62,706 nucleotides of DNA from Fundidesulfovibrio magnetotacticus. GTDB taxonomy: Bacteria > Desulfobacterota > Desulfovibrionia > Desulfovibrionales > Desulfovibrionaceae. The DNA is taken from NCBI RefSeq assembly GCF_013019105.1, contig NZ_BLTE01000020.1, positions 1 to 62,706 of the forward strand. Direction: 5' to 3'. Position numbers and translations under genes: made by a program. Of the stretch, positions 14,451 to 21,916 are shown piece after piece; position 1 is the stretch's first letter, and each line of letters starts with the position of its first letter. Below the pieces are notes generated by a model. It was not told the DNA's origin and made no database searches. It saw only the letters and a program-made list of their open reading frames with translations.

Positions 14451-14471
14451 ACTATCGGGCATTATGATAGT
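14451..14471. promoter_or_regulatory. Inverted repeat just upstream of lysR (candidate operator)
   Basis: ACTATC-N9-GATAGT is a perfect 6-bp inverted repeat. It overlaps an upstream in-frame ATG at 14464 and ends 13 bases before the preferred lysR start at 14485. LysR-type regulators often bind such dyads to control themselves. Assignment to this regulator is inference. Confidence 0.4.
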
Positions 14472-14484
14472 ACCAATCCCTTCC

Positions 14485-15399
14485 ATGGATATACGACGTC
14501 TCGAAGCGTTCCGCAAAGTGTACGAGTTGGGCAGTTTTTCCAAGGCCGGACAGGGGCTTTTCCTCTCCCAGCCCACCATCAGCGCCCATGTGCTCTCTTT
14601 GGAGCAGGAACTTGGCACTCAGCTGTTCGACAGGCTGGGAAGGACTATCCTTCCCACCCAGGCCGGCGAGATCCTCTACCGCCACGTCTTGCAGGTGTTT
14701 TCCGCCCTGGAGACGGCGCGGGCAGAGGTTGAGCTTTTGCAGCAAAAAGTGGCCGGAGAGTTGCTCATCGGAGGTAGCACCATTCCCGCCACTTATCTTC
14801 TGCCTGAGAGGTTGGCCGAATTCTCCCGGCGTTATCCCGACGTGCGCGTGCGGCTCACGGTTGGCGATTCCCAGGACATCATCGGGGCCGTGGCTCGGGG
14901 AGAACTCGCTCTGGGTGTTGTCGGGCTGGCGGTGAGCGATCCCGAACTCGTGTTCACACCGTTCATAGAGGACGAGCTTTCGGTTCTTGGCTCTCGCAAA
15001 CTTCCTGGCTTGCAGGCGTTGTGCGACGGGGGCACGCCGTCCATCGCGGTGGAGGACTTGCGCAATTGGCCGTGGGTTATGCGCGAGCACGGCTCCGGAA
15101 CCCGCAAGGCCTTCGAGCTGGCTCTGGGCGCGGCGGGGCAGGACATCCGAACACTCAACACGGTCATCGAGGCGCGCAGCCATGAAGCGGTGGTGCAATG
15201 CGCTCTGCACGGACTGGGACTGTGCGTCTCATCCAAGTTGGCCGTTGCGCCATGCATGGCCAAGGGCAACCTGATCCAGGTGTCCGTGTCCGGGCTCACC
15301 ATGCAGCGTTCCTTCCATATGGTGCGCCACGCCAAGAGACACGTGTTTCCCGCCATGCGTTATTTCATGGACTACCTCAACACCGTCGCGGGCGCCTGA
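14485..15399 (+). CDS. LysR-family transcriptional regulator
   Basis: 304 residues from the ATG at 14485. This start gives the family-typical MDIRRLEAFRKVYELGSFSK; an ATG seven codons upstream falls inside an inverted repeat and is less likely. The winged helix-turn-helix covers about residues 1-60 (SQPTISAHVLSLEQELGTQL), and a periplasmic-binding-protein-like effector domain about 88-295. The effector is unknown. It ends 3 bases before selD, so the two are almost certainly co-transcribed. That context suggests a role in selenium or sulfur metabolism, but nothing in the sequence proves it. Confidence 0.9.
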   Translation: MDIRRLEAFRKVYELGSFSKAGQGLFLSQPTISAHVLSLEQELGTQLFDRLGRTILPTQAGEILYRHVLQVFSALETARAEVELLQQKVAGELLIGGSTIPATYLLPERLAEFSRRYPDVRVRLTVGDSQDIIGAVARGELALGVVGLAVSDPELVFTPFIEDELSVLGSRKLPGLQALCDGGTPSIAVEDLRNWPWVMREHGSGTRKAFELALGAAGQDIRTLNTVIEARSHEAVVQCALHGLGLCVSSKLAVAPCMAKGNLIQVSVSGLTMQRSFHMVRHAKRHVFPAMRYFMDYLNTVAGA

Positions 15400-15402
15400 T
15401 CC

Positions 15403-16452
15403 ATGCAGCCGCTTCTCAGACTCGTCGATACCGTCAAAGCTGCCGGTTGAGCCGCCAAGCTCGCCCCAGGGGACCTGGCGGCAGTCTTGCGGGAACTGGA
15501 AATCCCAGACGATCCGAGGTTGCTGACGGGCTCGGGAGACAATGAGGACGCCGCGGTTCTGACGTTTCCTCCCGGAAAGGCCCTGATCCAGACCGTCGAT
15601 TTCTTCACCCCCGTGGTGAACGACCCCTACCGATTCGGCCAGATCGCCGCTTCCAACGCCCTTTCGGACGTGTATGCCATGGGCGGCGAGCCGTATGCTG
15701 CCATGAACATCGTCTGTTTTCCGGCGAAGTGCATGGACATGGCCATTCTGCGCGAGGTGCTGCGCGGCGGTCTTTCCAAGGTGCGCGAGGCCGGGGCGGC
15801 TCTGGCCGGAGGGCACAGCATCGAGGATGCGGAGATCAAGTACGGCCTGGCGGTGTCGGGGGTTGTGGAGCCCGGGCGCATCGCCACCAACCGGGGCCTT
15901 CGCCCCATGGACGAACTGGTGCTCACCAAGCCGGTGGGGACCGGGGTGCTGGCAACAGCCGTCAAGGCTGGACTTCCTGGGTGCGAAGCGCTGGAAGAGA
16001 GCATCTGGCGCGTGGCCTCGCGCCTCAACGCCGTGCCCGGGGCCGTGGTGCGCGAGCTGGGGCTGCGGGCGGCCACGGACGTGACCGGTTTCGGCCTGGG
16101 AGGACACACCCTGGAAATGTCCCGCGCTTCGGGCTGGGCCGTGGAGATCAACGCCACCTCCGTGCCGCTGCTGCCCGACGCCCTGGACCTGGCTCGTCAG
16201 GGGTTCGTGCCCGCAGGCAGCCACGCCAACAAGCAGCACTTCCAGGCCTGGACACGGATCGCTGCCGGAGTGGACCCGCTACTGGTGGACATGGTCTTCG
16301 ACGCCCAGACCTCCGGCGGCCTGCTTCTGGCGGTGCCCGGGGAACTGGTCGGGCGGGCCGTGAGGCTCCTCGAACAGGGAGGCGACGTGGCCGCACGCGT
16401 GGGTCGGGTGCTGGACGAACCTGCCCCGGACGGGCTCCTGCGCGTTGTCTAG
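15403..16452 (+). CDS. selD: Selenide, water dikinase (selenophosphate synthetase), selenocysteine-containing
   Basis: It makes selenophosphate from selenide and ATP, the selenium donor for Sec-tRNA. The ATG at 15403 opens a frame of 349 residues interrupted only by a TGA at 15448-15450, codon 16. Reading it as Sec gives KAAGUAAKLAPGDL. This aligns with the active-site Cys17 and Lys20 of E. coli SelD, with Sec16 and Lys19 at the same spacing. Downstream [30 protein letters not shown] and TDVTGFGLGGH are conserved SelD motifs. A hairpin follows the TGA directly. A gene finder that does not read UGA as Sec would start at the TTG at 15487 and lose the catalytic residue. The stop is 15399+3 bases behind lysR, so the pair is one operon. 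Confidence 0.95.
15448..15482 (+). promoter_or_regulatory. Candidate bacterial SECIS element after the selD UGA
   Basis: Directly after the in-frame TGA, GCCGCCA (15451-15457) pairs perfectly with TGGCGGC (15476-15482). The 18-base interior can form a short upper stem (CCC 15464-15466 with GGG 15470-15472). Bacterial SECIS hairpins bind SelB and lie immediately 3' of the UGA, as here. Position and stem are seen; SelB binding is inferred. Confidence 0.7.
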
Positions 16453-16644: not shown

Positions 16645-17058
16645 ATGAAGCCTGAGGAAAAGGTTGTTTCCATGGACGAATTCCGCAAGCCCAAGGAGAA
16701 CGAGGTGCCTTCCCTAGCCGAGCTCAATGCCAAGACTTCCCAGGACATCAGCCGCATGTCCCTCATCCTGGCGCTTGTCGCCGTGCTGCTCGCCGGCGTG
16801 CTGTTCTTCAAGTCCAACCAGAGCGTGAACGTCCTCACGAAGGACGTCGCTGGAATTTCCGCCAAGGTCGGCGTCATGGACGCCCGCATGGCCGAACTTG
16901 AGAACCTGCCCGCCAAGTCCAAGCGCATGGTCATGGGCACCCTGATCATGGAAATGGCCCAGAAGGCTTCCTACCTCTCCACCCAGGTAGACAATCCCGA
17001 GCAGGCCGCCAAGCTCCTCCAGGCCATGGAACTGCTCCAGCAGGCCAAGCCCGAGTAG
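16645..17058 (+). CDS. Small single-span membrane protein, function unknown
   Basis: 137 residues from the ATG at 16645, chosen because of the strong AAGGAGGAG ribosome binding site 5 bases upstream. The polar N-terminus contains MDEFRKPKENEVPSLAELNA. One membrane span follows at about residues 39-58 (MSLILALVAVLLAGVLFF). The rest is a helical, probably coiled-coil stretch (ISAKVGVMDARMAELENLP). This looks like a membrane-anchored protein with the coiled coil outside or in the cytoplasm; orientation is not clear. It has its own promoter and terminator. I recognise no family. Confidence 0.8.
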   Translation: MKPEEKVVSMDEFRKPKENEVPSLAELNAKTSQDISRMSLILALVAVLLAGVLFFKSNQSVNVLTKDVAGISAKVGVMDARMAELENLPAKSKRMVMGTLIMEMAQKASYLSTQVDNPEQAAKLLQAMELLQQAKPE

Positions 17059-19617: not shown

Positions 19618-19621
19618 CTAG
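19532..19621 (+). CDS. Possible 29-residue micro-ORF behind a strong Shine-Dalgarno
   Basis: A TTG at 19532 lies 6 bases after AGGAGGTG (19518-19525), an ideal ribosome binding site. The frame stays open for 29 codons to a TAG at 19619 and would encode a Cys/Arg/Pro-rich peptide starting MGCFPPCFRWERLSACP. It overlaps the convergent end of mobA by 4 bases. Coding is unproven; the Shine-Dalgarno may be chance in purine-rich DNA. Confidence 0.25.
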   Translation: MGCFPPCFRWERLSACPGNPQGRIARTLR

Positions 19622-20340
19622 AGCGAGCCGGTTCCCGGCACCTGGCGCAGTTCCTCGGGAGTGTTCACGTTGAAAAACGGGCGGGCGTTGGCCACGGTGT
19701 AGGGCACATCGTGGCGCAGGGCGGGCGGAAATGCCCGGGAGAGCTTGCGCTGTCCCTGGTCCAGGGCGCGGCGCATCACATCGGCGGCTCCGGGTTCATA
19801 GACGCTCACGAGGGCCTCGATGTAGTCGGTCTCGATCTGGGCGAAGGTGGTCATTAAGGCATGGGGCGGGCGGGTGCGCCACGCCGCCAGGAGTGTCCCC
19901 AGGGTGGACCGGTCCAGGAAGGGCAGGTCGCAGGAGAGCACGAGGCAGGGCGCGCGGAAGCGCTCCAGGGCCGTGAGGATGCCCCCCATGGGGCCGTTGC
20001 CGGGGCGCTCGTCCAGGAACCAGCAGGAGACGCCGGGCAGGGGGCCGGGATCGCGCCCCGAGACGGCCACTTCGGCGCAGAAGTTTCCGGCCAGGGCCAC
20101 GGCGCGCTCCAGGAGCGTGCGGCCCTCCATCAGCACGGCCGCCTTGTCACGGCCCAGGCGGCGGCTCTGGCCGCCGGCCAGGATCACGGCCGCGGGCGGG
20201 GCCGCGTCCGGGCCGGATGTCGGGACGGACACGGGCCCGGGCTCCGGCGCGGCACCCGATGGGGCCGAAGCGGCGGCCCCGGGCGCGAGCCCAGGTGCGG
20301 CCGTGGAGTCGCGCTCAGTCCCGAGCCAGGATGCGCCCAT
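19618..20340 (-). CDS. mobA: Molybdenum cofactor guanylyltransferase (MobA-like)
   Basis: 240 residues. The nucleotidyltransferase fold starts with AAVILAGGQSRRLGRDKAAV at about residues 50-69, the MobA signature that binds GTP, followed by CDLPFL (Mg-binding Asp) and NVNTPEEL near the end. It attaches GMP to molybdopterin to make the dinucleotide cofactor used by formate dehydrogenases. The first 49 residues are a low-complexity Ala/Pro/Gly stretch outside the family fold. The true start may be later, for example a GTG near residue 38. It overlaps the end of fdhD by 26 bases, which supports coupled expression. Confidence 0.88.
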   Translation of the reverse strand: MGASWLGTERDSTAAPGLAPGAAASAPSGAAPEPGPVSVPTSGPDAAPPAAVILAGGQSRRLGRDKAAVLMEGRTLLERAVALAGNFCAEVAVSGRDPGPLPGVSCWFLDERPGNGPMGGILTALERFRAPCLVLSCDLPFLDRSTLGTLLAAWRTRPPHALMTTFAQIETDYIEALVSVYEPGAADVMRRALDQGQRKLSRAFPPALRHDVPYTVANARPFFNVNTPEELRQVPGTGSL

Positions 20341-21028
20341 GCGGATCCGAAAAAATGCTGAAACGGTTCTCGCGGGAGAAGCCCGCCAGCGTCATGCCCG
20401 CCTCCCGGGCCTGGGCCACCCCGGCCGTGGTCACGGCCGAACGGCTCACCATGGCCGCATAGCCCGATGTGACGGCCTTGCGCACCAGCGACGCCGTGGC
20501 CCGGGCCGTGACGAAGAGCACCTGTCCCGCCAGGGGCGTGCCGGACTCCAGGGACCAGCCCGCCAGGCGGTCCAGGCAGTTGTGGCGGCCGATGTCCTCC
20601 ACGTGGCGCACGAAGGCCTTCTCCAGGGGATCGTAGAGTGCGGCCCTGTGGAAGCAGCCCGTGGCGTCCCAGCGTCCGGCCATCTCCATGAAGCGGCCCG
20701 CGCCCTCCAGGATGTCCCGGGCCGTGAGCGCCCCGGGCCAGGGACGCGCCGGGGGCGGCGCGCCGGGCTCGAAGCGCACGGCGAAGGCGCGCTCGCCCAA
20801 CGCCTCGACGCGGGGGACGGTTCCGTCCGGGGCGAGGTCCAGGAGGGCCTGCCCCAGCGCCAGGGCGCGCAGGTCCGTTGGGAAGGCCCAGAGGCGTTTG
20901 ATCCCCTGGCCCTGCACGTCGAGGGTCACGGAGACCTCGAAGGCCGCGTCGTCGTCGAAGTCCCGCCAGGCTCCGTCCTTGAACTGCCGACAGGGCAGCC
21001 GCGCCAGATCGGTTTCGTTTTTGTCCAT
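20315..21028 (-). CDS. fdhD: FdhD-like sulfurtransferase for formate dehydrogenase, lacking the CxxC loop
   Basis: 237 residues from the ATG at 21028 (E. coli FdhD 277). FdhD passes sulfur from IscS to the Mo/W-bis-MGD cofactor of formate dehydrogenase. The C-terminal half is clear: DATGCFHRAALYD, EDIGRHNCLDRLAG, LFVTARATASLVRKA and AVTTAGVAQAREAGMTLAGF. The segment that in E. coli holds CGVCG (Cys121/Cys124, Cys121 being the catalytic Cys) is missing: the sequence runs from RPWPGALTARDILEGAGRF straight on. Only two cysteines flank the active-site region besides one near the N-terminus. It may be a divergent paralog with altered chemistry. It is divergent from tupA. Confidence 0.85.
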   Translation of the reverse strand: MDKNETDLARLPCRQFKDGAWRDFDDDAAFEVSVTLDVQGQGIKRLWAFPTDLRALALGQALLDLAPDGTVPRVEALGERAFAVRFEPGAPPPARPWPGALTARDILEGAGRFMEMAGRWDATGCFHRAALYDPLEKAFVRHVEDIGRHNCLDRLAGWSLESGTPLAGQVLFVTARATASLVRKAVTSGYAAMVSRSAVTTAGVAQAREAGMTLAGFSRENRFSIFSDPHGRILARD

Positions 21029-21083
21029 GTGTCCTGATTGACATAGTGTCGGCCCATCTGGCAAGTGTGTCAAAACAGACACA
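21029..21083. promoter_or_regulatory. Repeated GTGTC/GACAC half-sites between fdhD and tupA
   Basis: The spacer holds GTGTC at 21029-21033, GACATAGTGTC (a dyad) at 21040-21050 and TGTGTC-AAAACA-GACACA (a perfect 6-bp dyad) at 21066-21083. TTGACA at 21037-21042 could be a -35 for tupA. The arrangement suggests an operator shared by both divergent operons, plausibly metal-oxyanion responsive. No regulator is encoded nearby. Confidence 0.45.
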
Positions 21084-21094
21084 AGGGGGTTTTC

Positions 21095-21916
21095 GTGAAG
21101 ACGAAACACATCGTTGCGCTCGCTCTCGCCGCGCTCCTGAACCTGGCGGGCATGGCCTGGGCCCAGGAGAAGGTGCTCATGATGGCCACCACCACCAGCA
21201 CCGAGGACACGGGACTCCTGCCCGTGCTGGCGGAGGCCTTCAAGAAGAAGTCCGGCGTGGAGCTGCGCTGGGTGGCCGTGGGCACGGGCAAGGCCCTGGA
21301 GATCGGCAAGAACTGCGACGCCGATGTGCTCATGGTGCACGCCCCCGCCGCCGAGAAGAAGTTCCTGGAAGAGGGTGCGGGCAAAGCGCGCACCGAGATC
21401 ATGTACAACGATTTCGTGCTCATCGGCCCCAAGGCCGACCCGGCCAAGATCAAGGGCAAGAGCGTGGCCGACGGCCTCAAGACCCTCGCCGGGCAGAAGG
21501 CCGTGTTCGTGAGCCGGGGCGACAAGTCCGGCACCCACATGGCCGAACTGGCCCTGTGGAAGTCCGCGGGCATGGACGCCCCGGACAAGGAGGCCTGGTA
21601 CGTCTCCTCGGGCCAGGGCATGCTCCAGTGCATGCGCATGGCGGCGGAGAAGGGCGGCTACGTGCTGGCCGACCGGGGCACCTGGATCAAGTTCGAGGCC
21701 ATGCCCGAGGCCAAGGACATGGCCATCGTCATCGAGGGCGACGCCCCTCTGCGCAACCAGTACAGCGTGATCACGCTGAACGCCGAAAAGTGCCCCAAGG
21801 CCAAGCACGAATGGGCCGAGGCCTTCGCCAAGTGGATGGCCACCGAGGGCCAGAAGGTGGTGGCCGATTTCAAGGTGATGGGCAAGCAGCTCTTCTTCCC
21901 CAACGCCCAGAAATAA
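21095..21916 (+). CDS. tupA: Tungstate ABC transporter, substrate-binding protein
   Basis: 273 residues from the GTG at 21095, supported by an AAGGGGG ribosome binding site and a clean signal peptide (about residues 1-23, ending MAWA). An upstream ATG would spoil the signal peptide. The mature protein opens with MMATTTSTEDTGLLPVLAEA, the TTTS oxyanion-binding motif of TupA/WtpA-like proteins. Later VSRGDKSGTHMAELALW is also a TupA hallmark. It binds tungstate in the periplasm and hands it to TupB. It heads the tupABC-mobB operon. Confidence 0.92.
   Translation: MKTKHIVALALAALLNLAGMAWAQEKVLMMATTTSTEDTGLLPVLAEAFKKKSGVELRWVAVGTGKALEIGKNCDADVLMVHAPAAEKKFLEEGAGKARTEIMYNDFVLIGPKADPAKIKGKSVADGLKTLAGQKAVFVSRGDKSGTHMAELALWKSAGMDAPDKEAWYVSSGQGMLQCMRMAAEKGGYVLADRGTWIKFEAMPEAKDMAIVIEGDAPLRNQYSVITLNAEKCPKAKHEWAEAFAKWMATEGQKVVADFKVMGKQLFFPNAQK

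Follow-up and report, generated by a model that had tools for sequence, protein, structure and literature searches.

The window, a stretch of 62,706 nucleotides from Fundidesulfovibrio magnetotacticus, encodes a selenide water dikinase (SelD) whose reading frame is interrupted near its beginning by a TGA codon. The question raised by this locus is whether the TGA is a true stop, is read as one of the ordinary amino acids or specifies selenocysteine (Sec), in which case the enzyme would itself be a selenoprotein, as proposed in a first-pass annotation of the sequence.

Reading frame of selD and the codon at its catalytic position

The selD gene (15403..16452, forward strand) runs from an ATG at 15403 to a TAG at 16450-16452 and encodes 349 residues, with Sec as residue 16 if the TGA at 15448-15450, the sole in-frame stop before the TAG, is read through. 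The product of the complete frame scores 335.4 bits against the SelD profile TIGR00476, for which the cut-off is 125, and matches SelD of E. coli (PDB code 3u0o) with an E-value of 4.5e-61. The two proteins can be aligned over residues 5-320, and the alignment places U16 on Cys17 and K19 on Lys20 of the E. coli enzyme, which we take to be its catalytic residues. The frame read from the ATG and this alignment with a Cys-containing SelD, which the first-pass annotation had suggested as a check, agree with its placing of the codon at the equivalent of Cys17. Similarity flanks the codon in the alignment with 3u0o as well as in the relatives, and homologous coding does continue on both sides of the TGA. 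The residue context is K12-A13-A14-G15-U16-A17-A18-K19, in which the Sec is situated two residues past the last alanine (A14) of the KAA motif and not four residues after it as had been described. In a genome of the same genus (L027) the N-terminal context of SelD is identical to that of Fundidesulfovibrio agrisoli (L021), by which the window would probably belong to that genus.

Calling of open reading frames under table 11 yields, in the SelD frame, 15487..16452 on the forward strand, a truncated product of 321 residues that starts at a TTG and has lost the active site, exactly as had been predicted for a standard gene caller. In the absence of Sec-aware calling this selD would be truncated or called a pseudogene, and the same misannotation would probably affect the family's other selD genes with a UGA. 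A second selD has not been found in the genome (4.46 Mb, rated 100% complete), where a search with its own SelD as query, at E-values up to 10, matched only the locus in the window.

The codon has been followed in 149 genomes of the family, sampled evenly from a larger group. A SelD match is present in 133 of them and absent from the remaining 16. Five of the matching genomes were left out of the codon-level set: G118, whose copy has a further stop and is in two pieces, G113 and G014, which gave fragments, and G035 and G140, which gave weak hits only. In all the 128 loci that constitute this set the site could be placed by means of a G-x-x-x-K motif no more than 12 residues away from its expected position. 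The codon is TGA in 126 loci and a Cys codon in two, namely TGT at L110 (genome G111) and TGC at L114 (genome G008). Since the TGA recurs at this site in 126 of 128 loci, its occurrence in frame is far beyond chance. These data (126 Sec and two Cys codons in 128 loci, and 16 of the 149 genomes without a match) provide a usable set for the study of the change from Sec to Cys and of the sequence of the SECIS element.

The hairpin downstream of the UGA

The hairpin reported in the first-pass annotation is real and is located at 15463..15482 on the forward strand; it does not follow the UGA immediately but begins 12 nt past it. It is comprised of 8 base pairs with one bulged base (15479) and a GGA loop (15471-15473) that lies 20 nt past the UGA, and occupies positions 15-34 when the U of the UGA is numbered 0. 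Bacterial SECIS (bSECIS) elements have been described, in the part of PMC13188914 that bears on them, by a loop of 3-9 nt, an upper stem of 4-16 bp, a G within the first two positions of the loop, a spacing of 16-37 nt and a minimum free energy of -7.5 kcal/mol or lower. With its GGA loop, 8 pairs, spacing of 20 nt and energy of -13.1 kcal/mol, the hairpin of the window satisfies all of these constraints, and this region is predicted to be the apical hairpin of a bacterial SECIS element and a binding site of SelB. The constraints, applied to a fold of positions 13-36 that was picked after the consensus fold, are satisfied at 125 of the 126 TGA loci, the sole exception being L150 with a weaker hairpin of -5.1 kcal/mol. 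Between the two Cys loci, L114 satisfies the constraints and L110 fails them. As the Cys-SelD of G008 (L114) has a satisfactory hairpin without a UGA, the hairpin alone is no proof of recoding.

The fold of the window is by itself unexceptional when compared with dinucleotide shuffles (z between -0.47 and -1.59 over four stretches). Tests on the relatives have therefore been used, and the case for the SECIS element rests on them. No SECIS model of Rfam was matched anywhere in the window when the gathering threshold was applied, though Rfam may include no model of this kind; over 15380-15560, at E-values up to 10, no SECIS was matched either, and the two hits obtained, to microRNA and msiK models, are far below their gathering scores.

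Covariation was assessed on the 126 TGA rows, which reduce to 115 distinct sequences. The two pairs ranked highest by APC-corrected mutual information are 22-26 and 15-33. The former takes the forms GC, AU, GU and CG, with pairing in 103 of the 115 distinct sequences, and the latter the forms GC, CG, UG and UA, with pairing in 87. Pairing at both exceeds that in all of 1000 column shuffles, which ignore the relatedness of the sequences. The columns 12-36 and 13-25, unpaired in the model, have mutual information of 0.208 and 0.194 as against 0.226 for 15-33. The inner pairs 16-32, 18-30 and 19-29 are nearly invariant and provide little covariation information, and the pair 17-31 is a C-C in five of the 115 distinct rows. 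The outer stem in the window itself shows a shifted register and a bulge.

Permutation of synonymous codons within each gene gave a mean z of -1.38 for the segment following the UGA (124 of the 128 loci, both Cys loci included, four loci being unusable) and a z of -1.59 for the window's own segment. This segment is therefore, on average, more stable than its permutations, unlike seven segments taken as controls from elsewhere in these genes, for which the mean z values range from -0.38 to +0.13.

Sec machinery and the alternative readings of the TGA

The genome encodes the machinery for the insertion of Sec. Profile searches identified selA (587.6 bits) and selB (367.4 bits), both over their cut-offs and separated by about 2.3 kb on the same contig, as well as a tRNA-Sec (79.4 bits) with the anticodon tca as assigned by ARAGORN. 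The first-pass annotation had suggested a search for selA, selB and selC, and held that its proposal would fail if selB or selC were absent or if a second selD, of the Cys type, were present; all three components of the machinery have been found, and neither of these situations is encountered. Two formate dehydrogenase alpha subunits of the FdnG type also score over the cut-off of TIGR01553 with one in-frame TGA each. At these loci (L151 and L152) the TGA with the shared context AR(I/V)UHS was kept and TGAs outside the coding frame were set aside. In each of these genes a hairpin with a GGC loop is found 23 nt past the UGA, as might be expected if one SelB serves all the three UGA-containing genes. 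A match to the selenouridine synthase family TIGR03167 was not obtained in this genome (G000), in G008 or in G111 (E 0.001).

The two relatives with a Cys codon differ in their machinery. In G008 no selA is matched at an E-value of 1e-20, no selB scores over the cut-off and no tRNA-Sec is matched at 1e-9 among the 150 scored of 599 first-look candidates, so that, as far as seen, both the Sec codon and the Sec machinery are absent. G111 has SelA, SelB and tRNA-Sec, all over cut-off, and yet a Cys-containing SelD, which indicates that Sec is not strictly required at this site where the machinery is present. The hairpin past the TGC of L114, which satisfies the constraints in a genome also devoid of a TIGR03167 match, is perhaps a relic SECIS, and the SelD of this locus perhaps an orphan.

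Some genomes of the family present the opposite situation. G010, G047 and G145 have selA, selB and tRNA-Sec over cut-off with no SelD over cut-off. Completeness is rated at 100% for G145 and at 99% for G047, which is in 4 contigs. In G063, selA and selB likewise score over cut-off, with neither a SelD over cut-off nor a tRNA-Sec match (E 1e-9). Three genus mates of G145 (L116, L126 and L136) have rplQ shortly upstream of selD, and in G145 the roughly 1.4 kb past rplQ (L175) hold no selD-like open reading frame; an assembly gap or a masked stretch may account for the missing gene.

The TGA could be read, by readthrough or in a changed genetic code, as another amino acid such as Cys or Trp. The inserted residue is not deducible from sequence, and the Cys found at this site in two relatives would agree with such a reading. 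It is opposed by the Sec machinery of the genome (selA, selB and the tRNA-Sec, whose anticodon is tca), by a hairpin that fits the SelB-dependent model and by the LysR gene upstream of selD, which ends in a TGA of the same frame just where the match to its family ends (residue 307 of 311), so that TGA appears to be an ordinary stop there. We regard this reading as very improbable and have rejected it. That the TGA is a true stop, leaving selD as a pseudogene or as a gene starting at the internal TTG at 15487, agrees with the table 11 calling but has next to no probability and has likewise been rejected, as the same codon recurs at nearly all the loci, coding similarity flanks it, the genome has no other selD match, a covarying hairpin follows and selA, selB and tRNA-Sec are all present.

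The proposal that this SelD is a selenoprotein is thus supported by the site, its conservation, the SECIS element, the machinery and the lack of a second gene. The sequence data indicate, almost with certainty, that in the lone selD of this Desulfovibrionaceae-type bacterium the catalytic residue is Sec, the insertion of which would depend on SelB and the hairpin.

Genomic context and relation to known Sec-containing SelD

The gene preceding selD (14464..15399, forward strand) encodes a LysR-type regulator that scores 267.7 bits against NF040786 (LysR_Sec_metab), over the cut-off of 250, and is assigned to the selenium-metabolism subfamily. Its TGA stop lies 3 nt before the start codon of selD, and the two genes are probably co-transcribed. 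Of the 124 loci that have at least 1000 nt of sequence ahead of selD, 41 (the window among them) carry a LysR homologue there on the strand of selD. These proteins share 44-100% identity with the LysR of the window (itself included), and are counted by this homology rather than by the NF040786 cut-off. A subfamily called LysR_Se has been proposed, in the relevant portion of PMC5322559, as a regulator of Sec genes that most likely senses selenophosphate. The regulator of the window resembles it in scoring over the NF040786 cut-off and in adjoining a Sec gene, no difference being found within that account, and LysR_Se and NF040786 presumably represent the same subfamily.

On the other side of selD, an open reading frame of 137 residues (16645-17058) shortly past the gene has no match in NCBIfam or Pfam (E 0.001). 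Genes for MobA-like and FdhD-like proteins on the minus strand adjoin a gene for a TupA-like tungstate-binding protein at 19618-21916, about 3 kb past selD. All three score under the curated cut-off of the model that fits each best, and the region is perhaps a cluster for molybdenum/tungsten cofactor and formate dehydrogenase maturation.

In the mechanism that we propose, ribosomes would start at the ATG at 15403, and the hairpin at 15463-15482 would recruit SelB with Sec-tRNA-Sec at the UGA at 15448, with the result that Sec is inserted. The full-length SelD would then produce selenophosphate, from which SelA would make further Sec-tRNA-Sec to serve SelD itself and the two formate dehydrogenases with an in-frame TGA, and the output of the gene would be expected to depend on the supply of selenium. 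The positive feedback pointed out in the first-pass annotation is a correct logical consequence of this pathway, SelD being dependent on itself by construction; its role in regulation is putative. A more elaborate arrangement, in which the UGA of selD and the selenium-type LysR 3 nt upstream would form a selenium-sensing autoregulatory unit, appears distinctly unlikely. Low selenium would there shut off SelD by termination at the UGA, and the product from the TTG at 15487 or a form with misinserted Cys would preserve a basal function and so allow the loop to start again.

E. coli SelD differs from the protein studied here in having Cys instead of Sec and a second Cys two residues on (GCGCK), where the SelD of the window has Ala (GUAAK). 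Table 3 of PMC1794560 lists Sec-containing SelD among the selenoproteins of Desulfovibrio vulgaris and other Deltaproteobacteria. The D. vulgaris protein is the same enzyme, a listed selenoprotein of related bacteria, and from that listing alone no basic difference from the present case is seen. According to the pertinent passages of PMC4561486, a reference set of SelD genes has Sec in 19% of its members, at one and the same position throughout, and RNAz recovered the bacterial SECIS elements of Sec-containing SelD genes. The dependence of SelD on its own product is of interest and has already been recognised. Sec-containing SelD has long been known, Desulfovibrio included, and the case described here is a sound but ordinary example of a feature that is common in this family.
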